Made by a program: the position numbers and the translations under genes. This document shows, in pieces, positions 3,474 to 64,000 of a stretch of 64,000 bases of DNA (positions within the stretch are counted from its first letter, which is position 1; each line of letters starts with the position of its first letter). A model generated the notes under the pieces. It had not been told where the DNA came from and did not search any database. It worked only from the letters and a program-made list of their open reading frames with translations. Origin of the DNA: a virus; IMG/VR virus record IMGVR_UViG_3300042891_001130, positions 1 through 64,000 of that record; one strand, given 5' to 3'.

Positions 3474-6400
3474 AATTATAAATATCTTTCAAAATAAAAA
3501 ATTAACTGAAGGCGGTAATGCTCAAGTCGCCGATAGAGATAATCCAGAGATTGTATATTCTGCTGAAAAAATTGATCTTGAAAAAACTAACAGAACTCAG
3601 GCTGCTAATTTAGTAAAACAAACAATTAATGCGTTGAATCAAAGTTTTCAATCCATTTATAAAGAACCAATTTTTGGAGAAGAATTATTTAAATCAAACG
3701 AATATTTAAGCGGAAGTTCTAAACACTTTTTTAATACTGCTGGAATTTCAGATCAAGAATTTACAAAATATAAACAAAAAGTCGGCGATATCGATGTACA
3801 ATGCGATGTAGATCAAAAACCACAGATACAAAAATTTTTAGATGATCATTATAAACAACAGTTTGGTCCAGGAAGATTATTGGGATATTCTTCTTCTGCG
3901 GAACAATTCAATTCAATTTTTCGTATCGACGAAATTGGACTAAATGTTCAAATTGATTTTGAATTTGGGCAATATGATAAAGAATTAGGTCACCCCACCG
4001 AATGGTATAAATTTAGTCATAGTTCAGAGTGGGACGATATTACCGCAGGCATTAAGGGTGTATTTCATAAATGGATTTACAGAGCATTACCTGCTGCTAA
4101 AGTAACTCCAAAGCACATAGCAGCATATAAAGGCTCGGGAAAAAATCGTGCTATTAATATAGAACCAGAACCTACTCAATCAAAAGATATAAGTTTTGCA
4201 GTAGGAAGCAGTCAGGGAGGTGGAGCAAGTTATAAATTCTCTCCTTACTTAGATCCGCAAACTGGAAAACCTATGGATATAAAAGGTGTTCCTGTACAAC
4301 AAGAATTGCCCAGCGCTCAAAGAACTTATATACAAAATTTAGATCAACAGTTCGAAATGTTTTTTGGAGTGCAGCCCAGCGGAAACGATAAAACTTTACA
4401 AAAAAGTTATGTAGGGACTTTAGAACTAATGAACAAATATTTAGATCAAAGTCAAATAACTGCTGCATTTGAAGAATTTATAAAAATTTGTTTTGACGAA
4501 GCAGCACAGATGATCGATCGAGATAATCCAGAATCCGATGCTGAGGCAAAATTTGCCGCAATTGATAAAGGACTAGAAATTTTAAAAATTTCAAACAAAA
4601 AACAATTACGAGATCAAGCAGTAGCAATGGCAAAAATATATTCAGATGAATATTTTGATTTACAACAATTTAAGAAATGGTTTGATAGTTTACCTAAAGA
4701 AAAACAAGATGCTATCAATGTAACCAGCAAAGGTGCTGCTAGAAAAGATATTCAGTATAATTCTCTTAGAAAAAAATTAAAAGCAGCCGGACAATGGCCT
4801 ATTAATGTATTAACAGAAGAAGATGCCAAGCCAAATTATGGTAGGCAAGGTATTGAACACATTTATAGTCGTAGACCCGACGGTACTCCAAGTAGTACAG
4901 AAATGAAGCCTGCTGCATTCGTAGAATTATGCGACGAAATAGCACAACTAGGCGGAAATTTAGATAATATACAGATAAATTTAAAAGTCGACGGAATGGG
5001 TATGAGATTCGGTAAAGACGAATCTGGAGAGCCATTTTTTATTACTAGCAGTAGATCAGATCCAGTTAGATTAAAAGATGTAGGATCATTCTTGGCTTAT
5101 AATCAAGAATTAGTAAAAAAAGGTGAATTAGATCCGAACAGCGAATTAGGTAAAGCCGCAATTGCAAGAGCAATTAATTATGACAAGGCTGCTGAAACAA
5201 TTTTAAAAAGTAAATTTATTCAAACTTTACCCCCCGACACAATTGTACAAGCAGAAATGATGTACGATTCGAATATGACTCCAGACAGTCAAGGATTTAA
5301 AACATTTGTTAATATTCCTTACGATGTAAAAAAATTAGGGAAAGTAATGACGTTGGCCCCGTTCATGGTTAAAAAGTATTCAACTAAAGAACGAATACCC
5401 GATGAACAAAATATAATTAAAAAATTACTATCAACAAGTGATTCTAACATTAAAATTATTTCAAACGAATTAGATCAATCAGGAATAAATGTTGGTAAAA
5501 TAATTGCTCCTGTTGTCAATTTGCCTGCAGATTTGCGGGCAACACTGACTAGCAGAAAACCAGCAGACAGAGCCATTAGAGATGCTCAAGTAATTCCTGT
5601 ATTAGATAAAGCAAGGGCAGAATTAAGTAAGGCAATTATTGATAGTCCAAAATTAAAAGGTATGGATATGCTAGGCCCATACAACGAAGGTATTGTTGGA
5701 AACATGCCTAGTGGAAGACTATTTAAAGTTACAAGTCCCTTGATGAAAGAAAAAATATTACAAAAGCAATCATTTGGATCTGTTGAAAAAAGATCTGCGG
5801 TTGTTGCCATGGGTAGTTTTGCTGGACATAGAGGTCATGAACAGTTAATAAGTATTGCCATAGATAGAGCAAATAAAGAAGGAGCGACTCCATTTGTATA
5901 TGTAGGTGGTAAAGTAGGACCAGATGATCCATTTCCTGTAGAAACAAAATTAGAAACTCTTAGAAAACTATTTCCAGGAGTAGGCATATTAAGTGTAGAC
6001 GCACAATTTGATTTACAAACAGATAAAGCAACAATTGGTCAATTTGGTAAGAAAGTCGAATATGAACTAATGAAAAAACCGCCGTATTTTAATCATATTA
6101 TTATAGCAGTAGGCGAAGACAGAAAAGCATTTGCAGATGGGTTAGTTGCATGGGCAACCAATAGATTTGGAAACCATCCAAATCTAAAGCATGTTAAATG
6201 GGAAGAAGATATAAGTTCTCGAAATGAAGAAGCAGGCGGAACTGGTGTAAGCACTACTCAAATGAGAAATGCATTAAAAACTATGCCTGAAAATCAAGCC
6301 CTTCAAATATGGAGCAAAGGTTTTAATGTAGAAAAATTAGGTGTTGAATATATCAAACACCTAATGGATGTTGCAAGAAAAAATATGAATATCCAACCTC

Positions 6401-24069: not shown

Positions 24070-24098
24070 TTGATTTTTCTAAATATTAGTAATATACT
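24070..24098 (+). promoter_or_regulatory. Sigma70-like promoter of queE
   Basis: TTGATT (24070-24075) and TATACT (24093-24098) are 17 bp apart, 23 bases before the queE start, which has CAAGGAA as ribosome site. Confidence 0.55.
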
Positions 24099-25418: not shown

Positions 25419-26404
25419 TGGCTACATATATTCTTGTCGATACTGCTAATACTTTTTTTAGAGCACGCCATGTTGTTAGAGGCAGTCTCGAAGATAAAGT
25501 GGGCATGAGTCTCCATACTGTATTTGGTAGTATTAGAAAAGCATGGAGAGATTTTAACGGCGATCATGTTGTCTTTTTCCTAGAAGGGAGATCATGGCGT
25601 AAAGATTTTTACGAACCCTATAAAAGGCAGCGTTCAGAAGCAAGAGCAGCACTATCTCCTAGAGAAGCAGAAGAAGATCGTACCTTTTGGGAAACATTTG
25701 ATCAATTTAAAGATTTTGTTATCAACAAGACAAACTGCACAGTATTGCATAATCAGCAACTAGAAGCAGACGATCTTATTGCTGGCTGGATTCGTTTTCA
25801 TCCTAAAGATACACACATTATCATCAGTACAGACGGCGATTTCGCGCAATTAATTGCACCGAATGTAAAACAATATAATGGTGTAACTGGAGTTACTACT
25901 ACACATGAAGGATACTTCGACGAAAAAAATCGCCCTGTTGTAGATAAAAAAACAAAGCAAATTAAACCGGCTCCGGATCCCGAATGGTTACTTTTTGAAA
26001 AATGTATGAGGGGTGACACTAGCGATAACATTTTTAGTGCGTATCCGGGTGTAAGAGAAAAAGGAACAAAGAATAAAGTTGGTCTAAGAGATGCGTTTGC
26101 AGATAGAAACAGCAAAGGATGGGCATGGAACAATCTCATGCTACAGAAATGGATTGATCACGAAGGGGTTGAGCATCGTGTGCTAGACGATTACTATCGC
26201 AATGTTAAACTTTGTGACCTTAAGGCCCAGCCTGATGATATTCAGAAAATCATCGACGATACCATTATTGCAAATAAAAATTCAAAAAATGTTGAACAGG
26301 TGGGGATTAGACTTTTGAAGTTCTGTTCAACATATGATCTTCAAAAAATTAGTGAGCAAATACAAAGTTATTCAGAACCGTTGAATGCGAGGTATACCAC
26401 ATGA
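25418..26404 (+). CDS. rnh: FEN-family RNase H / 5'-3' exonuclease
   Basis: The protein has 328 residues; T4 RNase H has 305. It removes RNA primers and trims flaps during lagging-strand synthesis. Metal-site motifs are 'ILVDTANTFFRARH' (D8), 'HVVFFLEGRSWRKDFYEPYKRQR', 'LEADDLIAGW' (about 112-121) and 'IISTDGDFAQL' (about 132-142), with a later 'CMRGDTSDNI'. These are the ordered acidic clusters of the 5' nuclease family. The start overlaps the previous stop (TAATG). Confidence 0.85.
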   Translation: MATYILVDTANTFFRARHVVRGSLEDKVGMSLHTVFGSIRKAWRDFNGDHVVFFLEGRSWRKDFYEPYKRQRSEARAALSPREAEEDRTFWETFDQFKDFVINKTNCTVLHNQQLEADDLIAGWIRFHPKDTHIIISTDGDFAQLIAPNVKQYNGVTGVTTTHEGYFDEKNRPVVDKKTKQIKPAPDPEWLLFEKCMRGDTSDNIFSAYPGVREKGTKNKVGLRDAFADRNSKGWAWNNLMLQKWIDHEGVEHRVLDDYYRNVKLCDLKAQPDDIQKIIDDTIIANKNSKNVEQVGIRLLKFCSTYDLQKISEQIQSYSEPLNARYTT

Positions 26405-26868
26405 TTATTTCAAAAAATATTGTCCCAAACAAAGAATGGATTTTAGAAGACGAACAAGGAAAAATTGGATCTATTTCAAAAAAGAAAAAAGGTTACGACT
26501 TTCTTAGAAAAGGTCAAAAATTTGAATTTAAAAATCTAAACGAAATCAAAAAAGAGTTAGGAATACAAACATTAGAAAATTCTAACCCTTCTCCTTGTGT
26601 AGAAGAAAAGTACGAAATTTACGACTATCCGTGTAGTTCCAAACCGTTTAATCCTTTATACAACATACGAAAAAAATTACCGTTATTTTCTAAAAGCAAT
26701 AAAAGTAAAAGCCAATATTGTGCAGGATATTATTTGGTAAAATTTAGAAAAGGATGGGTAAAAAGTTTTTGTCCAAAATTAATTACTATAGAACGATATC
26801 AGCATCACGGTCCATTTAAAACAGATACTGATACAAAACTATTTTTAAACAAAATTAATAAAATATGA
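26401..26868 (+). CDS. Conserved basic hypothetical protein
   Basis: The protein has 155 residues and overlaps the exonuclease gene by four bases. It has a lysine-rich N-terminal half and a conserved-looking C-terminal half: 'YDYPCSSKPFNPLYNIRKKL', 'SKSQYCAGYYLVKFRKGWVKSFCPKL', then 'HHGPFKT'. Three Cys and many aromatics suggest a folded nucleic-acid-binding domain. I recall it next to replication genes in marine T4-like phages. The function is unknown. Confidence 0.55.
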   Translation: MIISKNIVPNKEWILEDEQGKIGSISKKKKGYDFLRKGQKFEFKNLNEIKKELGIQTLENSNPSPCVEEKYEIYDYPCSSKPFNPLYNIRKKLPLFSKSNKSKSQYCAGYYLVKFRKGWVKSFCPKLITIERYQHHGPFKTDTDTKLFLNKINKI

Positions 26869-27086
26869 AACATCTAAATACTTTACCAATTGAAGATTTT
26901 TTAGATAAAGCAAGGATTGCTATTAAATCAAATCAAAAATCAATCACTTTAACTTTGCAAGAAGTTATCAATTTACAAAGTAGTTTAGCAATTGTAATGA
27001 CAAAATTAGCAGGTGATTTAGATCAAAAAGCATCGACTCCTACACCTAGTATGGTCCAAATAAAAATGGACGGCGGAAAATTCTAA
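26865..27086 (+). CDS. Small hypothetical protein
   Basis: The protein has 73 residues and overlaps its upstream neighbour by four bases. The N-terminal 50 residues are one or two amphipathic helices ('IEDFLDKARIAIKSNQK', 'LTLQEVINLQSSLAIVMTKL') followed by a short flexible tail. No family is recognised; the operon link to the exonuclease gene supports that it is translated. Confidence 0.5.
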   Translation: MKHLNTLPIEDFLDKARIAIKSNQKSITLTLQEVINLQSSLAIVMTKLAGDLDQKASTPTPSMVQIKMDGGKF

Positions 27087-27094
27087 TTATACAT

Positions 27095-27131
27095 AATAAA
27101 TATACACGTACTTTTTGGAGATACGTGTATA
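27095..27131 (+). promoter_or_regulatory. Late-promoter box overlapping a 10-bp hairpin at a start site
   Basis: AATAAATA (27095-27102) is a T4-late-like box. TATACACGTA (27101-27110) pairs perfectly with TACGTGTATA (27122-27131) around an 11-base loop containing the ribosome site TTTGGAG; ATG follows at 27134. Read-through mRNA would carry the full hairpin at the start site. Initiation about six bases after the box (near 27108) would delete most of its left arm. Confidence 0.65.
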
Positions 27132-27133
27132 CT

Positions 27134-27433
27134 ATGAGCCGCCCAAAACCAAAAATTTTATTAGAGATTGTAAATAAGAAAAATTATAAAACAGATCAAG
27201 TTTTAGAATCCGATGCCATTTGGGCTGTTTTTTACAAAGGTAAACCAATAAATTTAAAAACTTCAAGTTTGTTAGGGGAATCTACGGGTCCAAAATACAA
27301 AAAAGTTAGTTTTTCAAATAGTGGTCATGCCTTCAATTTGGCTGAAAAATTAAATAAAATATTTGATACAGACGAGTTTTCTGTTTATAAGTTAACTACT
27401 GGTCAAAAAATTAATAATGAATCCGAAATTTAA
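27134..27433 (+). CDS. Conserved hypothetical protein behind a regulatory hairpin
   Basis: The protein has 99 residues. ATG 27134 is preferred; GTG 27125 in the same frame lies inside the hairpin arm and too close to the ribosome site. The protein is basic, with 'SDAIWAVFYKGKPINLKTSS' and 'GPKYKKVSFSNSGHAFNLAEKLNKIF'. I recall relatives in marine T4-like phages. The function is unknown. It overlaps the next gene by 17 bases. Confidence 0.6.
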   Translation: MSRPKPKILLEIVNKKNYKTDQVLESDAIWAVFYKGKPINLKTSSLLGESTGPKYKKVSFSNSGHAFNLAEKLNKIFDTDEFSVYKLTTGQKINNESEI

Positions 27434-27815
27434 TATAACCACACTAATAGCAAAAATTTTAAATCTTCCCTGTGACGAAAAAAATATAAAAAAATATACT
27501 CGAGTATGGTGGGTAAACCCAAGAGACAAACGAACTGGAGGTCTTCAACTTACCGAAAAAGGGTTTGAAGTATTCCAAAAGTCAAATATAAAACACTACG
27601 AAATAGTATTAGAATCTCCAATTATATACACAAACAGTATGATAGTTTGGTTAGACAACAAAATAGATTGTCCTTACTTTTTAACTAATAAAAAAATATT
27701 TGTATTTGGTGAAAAAACTGCTGTCCAATTGTTATTGTTTTCCGGAGACTTAAACAAAATGAAACGGGCTCAAGACAGATTTCAGCAAAAAGTCCTTGAC
27801 AATTCGTTGCGGTGA
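27417..27815 (+). CDS. Conserved hypothetical protein
   Basis: The protein has 132 residues. Distinct blocks are 'KKYTRVWWVNPRDKRTGGLQLTEKGFEVF', split here by a Trp pair, and 'IVWLDNKIDCPYFLTNKKIFVFGEKTAVQLLLFSGDL'. I recall the same blocks in marine T4-like phages. The aromatic, basic N-terminal block could bind nucleic acid; no catalytic motif is seen. The moxR promoter overlaps its last codons. Confidence 0.6.
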   Translation: MNPKFNITTLIAKILNLPCDEKNIKKYTRVWWVNPRDKRTGGLQLTEKGFEVFQKSNIKHYEIVLESPIIYTNSMIVWLDNKIDCPYFLTNKKIFVFGEKTAVQLLLFSGDLNKMKRAQDRFQQKVLDNSLR

Positions 27816-27824
27816 CGCTAATAT
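27796..27824 (+). promoter_or_regulatory. Sigma70-like promoter of moxR-like gene
   Basis: A perfect TTGACA (27796-27801) is followed after 17 bp by TAATAT (27819-27824), with an overlapping TATAAT at 27822-27827. The start codon is at 27858 with AGAAGG before it. Confidence 0.65.
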
Positions 27825-27857
27825 AATAAAACAAACTTAAACTTTAGAAGGTGTTTT

Positions 27858-28943
27858 ATGGCAAAAGAAGCAATGTCTGCTAACAGAACTGTCAGCCCTA
27901 ACGAAGCAAAATTTGCTCTTCGTAAGGCTATTAAAAAGCAACGTCCAATTTTCATGTGGGGTCCTCCAGGTATTGGTAAATCTGATATTATTAAACAACT
28001 CGGAGACGAACAAGGTCGTGAAGTTGTCGACGTTAGATTAAGTCTATGGGAACCTACTGACATTAAGGGCATTCCTTATTACAACAGTCAATTGAACTCT
28101 ATGAGTTGGGCTCCTCCTGCAGAACTTCCTACTGATCCAGAATCTACTGCTATTCTATTCCTAGACGAACTCAACTCTGCGGCTCCTGCTACTCAGGCTG
28201 CTGCTTATCAACTAATTTTGAACCGTAGAGTTGGAACATATGTTTTGCCAAAAGGCGTGGCAATTGTTGCTGCCGGAAATAGAGAAACTGACAAAGGTGT
28301 TACATATCGTATGCCTGCACCGCTGGCTAATAGATTTGTTCATATCGAACTTCGTGTTGATTTTGATGATTGGCACCAATGGGCTGTTATGAATCGTCTG
28401 CATGAACAAGTTGTTGGTTACATCGGCTTTGCCAAGCAAGATCTTTACGATTTTGATCCAAGGAGCGCCAGTAAGGCTTTTGCTACTCCTCGTTCTTGGA
28501 GTTTTGTTAGTGAACTTCTCGAAGACGACGACGTTAGCGAAAATACATTAACCGATCTTGTAGCAGGTGCTATTGGAGAAGGGCTTGCTGTTAAGTTTAT
28601 GGCTCACCGTAAGGTTGCCAAACAAATGCCTAAGCCCGAAGATATCCTTAAAGGTAAAGTTAAAAAGTTCGAAATTAAAGAAATTTCTGCAATGTATTCT
28701 TTGACCATTAGTCTTTGCTACGAACTACAAGAAGCAGACAAGAAAAAAGTCATTGAGTGGGACGAAATGGCTGATAATTTCTTTGGATTTATGATGAACA
28801 ATTTCCCAACTGAACTTGTTGTTATGGGTGCTAAGGTTGCTTTAACTAATTATCAACTTCCGTTTGATGCTAGCAAACTAAGCAATTTTGATAAATTCCA
28901 CGACAAATACGGAAAATATATTATCCAAGCAATGGAAGGTTAA
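27858..28943 (+). CDS. MoxR-family AAA+ ATPase
   Basis: The protein has 361 residues. MoxR ATPases act as chaperones that remodel or insert metal cofactors into partners and are typically paired with a VWA protein, as here. Walker A is 'GPPGIGKS' (35-42), Walker B 'LFLDELN' (100-106), with sensor-like 'GIAIVAAGNRETDKG' and an arginine-bearing 'MPAPLANRFVHIEL' further on. A terminator follows directly, and the VWA gene has its own promoter. The client in the infected cell is unknown. Confidence 0.85.
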   Translation: MAKEAMSANRTVSPNEAKFALRKAIKKQRPIFMWGPPGIGKSDIIKQLGDEQGREVVDVRLSLWEPTDIKGIPYYNSQLNSMSWAPPAELPTDPESTAILFLDELNSAAPATQAAAYQLILNRRVGTYVLPKGVAIVAAGNRETDKGVTYRMPAPLANRFVHIELRVDFDDWHQWAVMNRLHEQVVGYIGFAKQDLYDFDPRSASKAFATPRSWSFVSELLEDDDVSENTLTDLVAGAIGEGLAVKFMAHRKVAKQMPKPEDILKGKVKKFEIKEISAMYSLTISLCYELQEADKKKVIEWDEMADNFFGFMMNNFPTELVVMGAKVALTNYQLPFDASKLSNFDKFHDKYGKYIIQAMEG

Positions 28944-28944
28944 T

Positions 28945-28968
28945 AAAAAGGCCCTGCAGGGCCTTTTT
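28945..28968. terminator. Rho-independent terminator
   Basis: GGCCC (28950-28954), a four-base loop TGCA and GGGCC (28959-28963) are flanked by A5 and T5. It separates the MoxR and VWA genes and could act on either strand. Confidence 0.85.
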
Positions 28969-28970
28969 AA

Positions 28971-28999
28971 TTGACTTTAAATAAAAAAACTTATATAAT
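28971..28999 (+). promoter_or_regulatory. Sigma70-like promoter of VWA gene
   Basis: TTGACT (28971-28976) and TATAAT (28994-28999) are spaced exactly 17 bp, immediately after the terminator; ACAGGAGAA precedes the start at 29025. One of the clearest promoters of the window. Confidence 0.75.
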
Positions 29000-54800: not shown

Positions 54801-55389
54801 TAAAAATAGGCACATCATTATTAGAACTGTTAACTACATACCTTTCTGTTAACGCTCCAGATATTGTATCTCTATCAACTGGATTGCCAAACGCTGTAGT
54901 CATTGCAGAATTCATTATGTTGACAAATTGCTGATACCAATCTTGATTTGTTGGATCGTTCCACGCAATAACTGTGTTTGCTAAATTTACACCGTTTGCA
55001 TCAAAAACATTATCTGTAGTAGAAATAGCAGTAACTTTTAAAAATCCGTTTGCTGGAACATTTCTTGCAGGATTATAACTAATTAACTGTGCTAATCTTA
55101 AAATACTCTCACGACGTTCAGCAGTTTCTAAAAAGTTTTCTCTAGCATTTAAGTCAATTCTAAAACTTAAATTTTGGCCAAGGTACGCAATTAAATCAAT
55201 TAACGCAATGTATTCACTACTGTCAATGAAGTCATTAAATTCTTCAGGATAATTTTCACGAAGATAAGAAATCATTACCCTTTTAAGGGTTTCAAAATCA
55301 TAACTTTTAAAATCGGCATTTTTAAAAGATTGGTATACTTTTTTCCAATCTTCTGCCACTAATAATTTTGTATTTGTAGATGGAATCAT
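51850..55389 (-). CDS. 6: Baseplate wedge protein gp6
   Basis: The protein has 1,179 residues; T4 gp6 has 660, so this is the long form. gp6 dimers link the wedges into the ring around the hub. The N-terminal ~130 residues are characteristic: 'DFETLKRVMISYLRENYPEEFNDF', 'SSEYIALIDLIAYLGQNLSF' and 'RIDLNARENFLETAERRESI', taken piecewise. The central J-like region and C-terminal 'KTKILNAINEFFSLENWEFG' with 'FYFSELSTYV' fit baseplate J-type proteins. It lies next to gp25, as in T4-like clusters. Confidence 0.88.
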   Translation of the reverse strand: MIPSTNTKLLVAEDWKKVYQSFKNADFKSYDFETLKRVMISYLRENYPEEFNDFIDSSEYIALIDLIAYLGQNLSFRIDLNARENFLETAERRESILRLAQLISYNPARNVPANGFLKVTAISTTDNVFDANGVNLANTVIAWNDPTNQDWYQQFVNIMNSAMTTAFGNPVDRDTISGALTERYVVNSSNNDVPIFNFSKVINGVSMNFEIVPCTFTGESYIYEDSPAPGKSFSLIYKNDNQGSASPNTGFLVHFRQGTLSLANFSLDNPVPNEIVGVNTPNINNSDVWLWQLDKNGNYSTLWTQVPALLGNNVIYNSLNQSLRSIYAVSTRNDDQIDLNFADGVFGDLPKGDFRLFYRQSNGLSYIIKPEQMSGVVITIPYFNSFGQSQELQLTLSLEYTVSNSAGPESNASIQLKAPQLYYTQNRMITGEDYNISPLNAGSDILKVKSINRISSGLSKYFDISDVTGKYSQTNIFADDGILYKEEIEEFFEFDFASRSQILSVIKNQLAPIVNSSKLKNFYLDKYSKIDLAYLGIRWTEVNKIPNESRGYFNLGSQVFSVGTFSISNLKYITPGALVKFIAPTGKYFDDNNNIKTIPTSNIIPSGGKIYFWSMVKQVVLDGSNGGLGALDDGTGPIIFSTKIPGDGTNSNSAIPTEVIPKYNNLLSFGLENEISNFCLGQRNFGLTIDSVSREWQFILNSNLNLQDAFSLANQNNIEDIGLDSSWIISFVWTGKKYKVTYRTLNFVFESNQKTAFFVDNSSVNYNFNDNTVLKDKINVLSVNSVPTGIPKWFGGPTNPSNTIGQDGSYYLNTTNGTIFQKMSGVWVQSSNITGELGNDFLWQIESPTIEKDGYVNPRKVKINFYDFNTLGQIEDPDSFDKIVGDNKFVYFKLDSDGIYRLTTDVRDAIESEDNWNSYLLNPINQPINNGDLFYFYNPNENVVKKWSTETSTLIFDENYIGRSGRADLKFQYTHNSGNNRRIDPSKSNIIDIYLLTVSYDNEFRQYLSGVVNQEPLAPTTQSLEQNYKSKLDNIKSISDEIIFHPVKYKILFGEKADPNLQATFKAVKNNERLITDNDIKTKILNAINEFFSLENWEFGQTFYFSELSTYVMNKLTPDITNFVIVPKGNSGFGSFYEISSQPNELFIHSVSINDIEVISAITASQLKSSSNIVTSSGT

Positions 55390-63197: not shown

Positions 63198-63226
63198 TTG
63201 ACATTTGCAGTTTTTATTAATACAAT
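63198..63226 (+). promoter_or_regulatory. Sigma70-like promoter of the late sigma factor gene
   Basis: TTGACA (63198-63203) and TACAAT (63221-63226) are exactly 17 bp apart; AAAGGA lies before ATG 63250. Early or middle expression by host-type polymerase fits a factor that must precede late transcription. An AATAAATA at 63173-63180 further upstream could add late feedback. Confidence 0.7.
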
Positions 63227-63249
63227 CAACTACAAAGGAAAAAACAATA

Positions 63250-64000
63250 ATGACCGACCCAGTGTTACCGACTTTACGAAAAGTAAAATATTTAAATAAT
63301 AAAGATTTATTAGCAGAAATCCATAAGAGCAAATGCAGTTTTTCGAGTTTTACTAAAAAAGAATACAGCCAACATGATATAATCTTGTCAAATATAGATA
63401 AAATTAATATTCGATCAATAGCAGAAGCAAAAAGAAATCGAGCAAAAAGATTAGGTTTAGAATTATTTTTAAAATTAAAAACCGAAGGAGATAAAAAAAC
63501 AAAACTTTCGGAATGTATCCCAAATTATAAAACTATTCCAAAAACAGATCTAATATTTAGAATAATGACATTTGATCATATTCCCCTGTCTCCGGGAAGA
63601 AAAAAAACAACAAAAACTACCGCAGATAGTCACGATAAAGTTAATTTTCCCCCGTTCCAACATTGGAAATTTGATGAAAACGACGAATTAGTGTGTGTCG
63701 GTAAAAGCCATTGGAAGGGCACTTTAGAAAAAGGAAAATTTTCAAAGGATCATGGAAGAATTACTGAAGAATTGGGAAAGATGTTCTTAAAATTAAGTGA
63801 ACGATATGCACAGAGATCAAACTGGCGTGGTTATACTTACGTAGACGAAATGAAGGGACAAGCCATACTACAACTAAGTCAAATTGGGTTGCAATTTGAC
63901 GAAAGCAAATCAGAAAATCCTTTTGCATATTATACTGCGGCAGTAACTAATAGTTTTACTAGAGTGTTAAACATTGAAAAGAAAAATCAAAACATTCGAG
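63250..64000 (+). CDS. 55: Late transcription sigma factor gp55-like, 3' end outside window
   Basis: About 250 residues are visible and the frame is open at the window end. T4 gp55 (185 residues) directs RNA polymerase to TATAAATA promoters. Residues from about 178 on contain the region-2-like part: 'LGKMFLKLSERYAQRSNWRG', 'YTYVDEMKGQAILQLSQIGLQF', each cut here at 20-22, and 'ENPFAYYTAAVTNSFTRVLNIEKKNQ'. This matches the sigma-2 helices including the NPFAYxT block. The N-terminal ~170 residues are an extension absent from T4 gp55, with 'DHIPLSPGRKKTTKTTADSH' and 'NFPPFQHWKF'. The ATAAATA boxes in the window suit this factor. Confidence 0.85.
   Translation, partial: MTDPVLPTLRKVKYLNNKDLLAEIHKSKCSFSSFTKKEYSQHDIILSNIDKINIRSIAEAKRNRAKRLGLELFLKLKTEGDKKTKLSECIPNYKTIPKTDLIFRIMTFDHIPLSPGRKKTTKTTADSHDKVNFPPFQHWKFDENDELVCVGKSHWKGTLEKGKFSKDHGRITEELGKMFLKLSERYAQRSNWRGYTYVDEMKGQAILQLSQIGLQFDESKSENPFAYYTAAVTNSFTRVLNIEKKNQNIR

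Follow-up and report, generated by a model that had tools for sequence, protein, structure and literature searches.

Results

Gene content and late promoter boxes of the source record

The DNA analyzed here (the window) is the initial 64 kb of a 93,201-base IMG/VR virus record that, judging from its sequence, is T4-related. The window encodes a phage DNA polymerase (phrog_262), a thymidylate synthase, and the first part of a gp55-type late sigma factor gene that continues in the remainder of the record (Table 1). A gp55 homologue was found in 19 of the 20 records searched, with the window's own record among them.

The T4-type late promoter motif ATAAATA was scarce in the window (12 copies on both strands versus 43.2 expected), as if selection acted against stray late promoters. 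Most copies in the 93-kb record (14 of 17) were located within 71 nt of the start of an open reading frame on the same strand, and only the copy at 27096 was associated with the hairpin described below. A related box, CTAAATA, is present at 24079 and could make the operon upstream of this leader late as well.

Anatomy of the leader

The leader under study (27087 to 27136) leads from a 73-aa gene to the start codon of a co-directional gene for a 99-aa protein (MSRPKP...) and combines a late promoter box with a hairpin. The two arms, TATACACGTA and TACGTGTATA, are perfect reverse complements over 10 bp; just eight perfect stems of at least 10 bp with a loop of 3 to 20 nt occur in the whole window. 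The right arm is followed by two bases (CT) and then by the ATG, whose A is at the third position after the arm; the distance from GGAG to ATG (13 nt) is long for a ribosome site. The stop codon of the 73-aa gene ends 14 nt 5' of the hairpin, with no terminator in between. Farther downstream, the window contains a strong terminator that is immediately followed by a sigma-70-like promoter (TTGACT-17-TATAAT; 28944 to 28999).

An earlier note on this DNA had described AATAAATA at the left arm of a perfect 10-bp hairpin, and its coordinates proved exact on a base-by-base check; its account of a ribosome site in an 11-base loop, with the ATG close past the right arm, was right almost to the base.

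Table 1. Features of the leader, its flanking genes, and the late sigma factor gene (positions in the window)
Feature	Positions	Strand	Basis or remark
Upstream co-directional gene, 73 aa	26865-27086	+	
Late promoter box AATAAATA, T4-type	27095-27102	+	Sequence exact; A(-13) variant of TATAAATA
Hairpin left arm TATACACGTA	27101-27110	+	Shares final two bases of promoter box AATAAATA
Predicted late transcription start, G	27108	+	6 nt past last A of box; T4 spacing
Loop CTTTTTGGAGA, 11 nt, GGAGA inside	27111-27121	+	Sequence and fold
Shine-Dalgarno GGAG, within loop	27117-27120	+	
Hairpin right arm TACGTGTATA	27122-27131	+	Between Shine-Dalgarno and start codon
Gene for 99-aa protein (MSRPKP...)	27134-27433	+	ATG 27134-27136
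gp55-type late sigma factor gene	63205-64000 (to 64155 in record)	+	phrog_234 match 63709-64119, E 1e-27

The isolated leader RNA had a predicted fold of -12.6 kcal/mol, compared with a mean of -6.31 kcal/mol for shuffled sequences (z = -2.86; 2 of 200 shuffles were equal or better). On this single genome, a chance origin of the promoter and hairpin is unlikely; given the leaders of the relatives, it is ruled out for practical purposes.

The 99-aa protein and its relatives

The 99-aa protein matched no Pfam family and no PHROG family. It has hundreds of relatives among viral contigs, and those in named phages include PA5oct, Phosso, Atu_ph07, and SCTP-2 (genomes of 285 to 490 kb). These were found by protein search; a DNA similarity search of the region against named phages and plasmids returned nothing. 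An AlphaFold2 model of the protein was confident (mean pLDDT, 89). Searches with this model gave no PDB match at an E value of 0.001 or better and, in a viral structure library at E ≤0.001, matched uncharacterized phage proteins only. The leader and its surroundings (positions 26000 to 28500) had no Rfam family match up to an E value of 1.

Conservation of the promoter and of pairing

TAAATA was present within 70 nt upstream of 291 of the 293 homologous genes fetched, compared with a background of 0.026 per 70 nt. Among 78 distinct leaders, the predicted +1 base was a purine in 71 and the preceding base was a pyrimidine in 63, which is the pattern expected of a start site. The late promoter reading of the earlier note thus gains support from the conserved box, from the gp55 homologue in the record, and from the published geometry of T4 late promoters: A(-13) was found at nine T4 late-promoter sites (PMC2988020), and from this numbering and the one-turn spacing we infer that late boxes in T4 extend from -13 to -6 relative to the start (PMC2988020).

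The distance of the stem from the ATG varies by a few bases from phage to phage, and we therefore used an arm-swap test, which allows for this, rather than a fixed-register covariation table, as the main test of pairing. The pairing of each leader's own arms was compared with that of arms exchanged among the 78 distinct leaders (10,000 permutations). The mean pairing energy was -6.87 kcal/mol for own arms and -3.65 kcal/mol for swapped arms (z = -13.8; 0 of 10,000 permutations). The window's own arms (-12.5 kcal/mol) paired better than all swaps. Controls in which one arm was moved or reversed gave z values of -4.2, -3.9, and +0.8; these are not zero, indicating that relatedness and composition account for a minor part of the signal. 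Conservation of pairing in relatives had been named beforehand as a check of the hairpin, and the outcome was favorable, i.e., the arms differ among relatives and yet stay complementary.

The part of the left arm 5' of the predicted +1 held a pairing signal by itself (z = -9.6), and the part after it gave none in the arm-swap test (z = -0.8). The signal thus sits in the portion that late RNA would lack. The 38 leaders with strong hairpins contained 25 distinct left-arm heptamers, with two to four Watson-Crick pair types at each of left-arm positions 1 to 7 past the box. Such compensated changes support the reading of this structure as a hairpin. In all 33 of the strong leaders in which a Shine-Dalgarno-like sequence was recognized, the hairpin enclosed it.

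In the leaders of L157 and L173, a strong hairpin over the promoter stops short of the Shine-Dalgarno sequence, which therefore lies outside.

Predicted folding of read-through and late RNA

The 38 strong leaders average 11.1 stem pairs, and in 6.8 of these, on average, the left base lies 5' of the predicted +1. Beginning the RNA at that position weakened the mean fold from -10.4 to -1.65 kcal/mol. For the window, late RNA starting at 27108 would retain 3 of the 10 stem pairs. The calculated cost of opening the ribosome footprint was 13 to 19 kcal/mol for read-through RNA and 5.5 to 9 kcal/mol for RNA starting at 27108, the ranges reflecting the ends used; some Shine-Dalgarno bases in the late RNA may still be paired locally. 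These predictions, from geometry and energy, agree with the proposal that initiation at the late promoter would remove the hairpin.

The same calculation gave similar values for the window (duplex, -12.5; fold, -12.6; late RNA, -1.6 kcal/mol) and for T4 gene e (duplex, -13.8; fold, -13.3; late RNA, -2.8 kcal/mol).

Distribution of the hairpin

On the protein tree, the hairpin was found mainly in one large clade, in which 151 of 166 distinct proteins had a strong hairpin and 8 had a weak one. The Phosso, PA5oct, and Atu_ph07 lineages have kept the promoter, and the hairpin is mostly absent from them. Considering family starts with the promoter 18 to 42 nt upstream, a strong stem was present in 199 of 273. 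At other late-box starts in these contigs, a comparable stem was present in 13 of 117, close to the swap background, and one of these 13 is a family member in another stretch.

An intrinsic terminator preceded the promoter in none of 156 hairpin leaders versus 11 of 59 leaders whose hairpin was weak or absent, and PA5oct has an obvious one. These counts fit two ways of keeping early RNA untranslated. An analysis of independent pairs fell short of significance and the trait is clustered on the tree, and for these reasons we treat the trade-off between terminator and hairpin as a lead only.

In L052 (2411 to 3001) and also in L053, a homing endonuclease open reading frame (phrog_314, E 2e-16) directly follows the promoter-hairpin and precedes the family gene. 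The arms of the hairpin there, CTGCGTAT and ATACGCAG, are similar to those of a relative, L040. Separately, the same promoter-hairpin arrangement precedes a 1140-aa gene on the minus strand of L315 (about 5772 to 5805 in reverse-strand coordinates); the apparent counterpart of that gene in the window's own record, which starts at 55389 on the minus strand, has a late box but lacks the hairpin.

Discussion

Resemblance to late-gene leaders of T4

For T4 gene e, both an approximately 100-fold block of read-through RNA and its late release are established by experiment, and soc and gene 49 of T4 are listed as late genes with an inhibitory structure at the start (PMC3014915). A late promoter and a hairpin that sequesters the ribosome-binding site, placed inside early or middle transcription units, are also described for I-TevI, I-TevII, I-TevIII, and segB of T4 and for mobE of Aeh1, and the I-TevI device has been tested in published experiments (PMC2988022).

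The leader in the window resembles that of gene e in that a hairpin containing the ribosome site has its left arm overlapped by the late box; its box-to-ATG distance and energies are also close to those of gene e by the same measure. Gene e differs in having two late boxes and a Shine-Dalgarno sequence partly in the stem, whereas the window has one box and a Shine-Dalgarno sequence in the loop. The 99-aa protein is, as far as family searches show, unrelated to that of gene e. With soc and gene 49, the likeness (an inhibitory structure at a late-gene start) is taken from their listing. The leaders of the homing endonuclease genes share the pairing of a late promoter with a sequestering hairpin, but the gene in the window encodes no endonuclease, and a wide range of phages has retained it. 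The endonuclease of L052 and L053, like those of T4, sits behind this type of device.

Proposed switch and alternative readings

We consider it highly probable that the leader acts as a switch for late expression, of the type known from T4 gene e, soc, and I-TevI. Read-through RNA from the upstream co-directional genes, whose early transcription we assume, would carry the whole hairpin. With the Shine-Dalgarno sequence in the loop and the right arm taking up most of the interval before the AUG, a 30S subunit would be unable to engage both, and such RNA would be silent because access to the two together is blocked. Later, a gp55-type sigma factor would direct polymerase to AATAAATA. The RNA would begin near 27108 and lack 7 of the 10 left-arm bases, such that the stem could not form and the 99-aa protein would be made. 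Early RNA is thus probably untranslatable and late RNA translatable; for the timing and the effect on translation, as for the individual steps of read-through, start site, and block, we infer the course of events from T4.

An inverted repeat that overlaps a promoter could instead be a DNA operator bound by a dimeric repressor, e.g., the product of the gene itself, and I-TevI, which represses its own expression by binding over its late promoter, provides a precedent (PMC2988022). The arms, however, are free to change in sequence as long as complementarity is kept, and in-register G-U pairs outnumber A-C mismatches by 19 to 8, an RNA-like ratio, although from leaders that are not independent. 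The ribosome site also lies inside the repeat, with the start codon at or just beyond its right end. We therefore regard an operator as very improbable. Slightly less probable again is that the promoter is real and the hairpin is a by-product of an A+T-rich leader, with no role in timing. The sister clade, with its promoter and no hairpin, and the near-background frequency of stems at other late-promoter starts would suit such an origin, but strong stems are present at most family starts and their arms covary.

RegB cuts at GGAG, and this motif is present in the loop here; exposed there, it might allow a RegB-type or other endonuclease to destroy read-through RNA. RNA decay is a general form of control in T4. 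Many relatives, however, carry TAGGA or GGGAA in place of GGAG, and 17 records gave no RegB match, a result of little weight as the positive control also gave none. Of the readings considered, we give this one the least credence.

More speculatively, and with doubt prevailing over confidence, the late-expression switch may be placed in a wider scheme. The 99-aa protein, conserved across T4-related phages of the jumbo type, would do harm or be of no use when produced early. One large lineage would for this reason shut off its translation by a freely evolving hairpin over the late promoter; other lineages may use an upstream terminator; and on at least one occasion the device would have been adopted by a homing endonuclease.

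Implications

The device itself is known from T4. What is new, from comparison of the sequences, is the depth of its conservation on one uncharacterized gene, together with one lineage that has a homing endonuclease gene directly behind the same device. Previously known from a few genes of laboratory phages, the T4 device is found here with compensated arms across a large uncultured lineage. The natural leader variants form a ready test set in which the constraints of promoter and hairpin are met in the same bases. For the biology of these phages, the device singles out the 99-aa protein: selection probably acts against its being made early.
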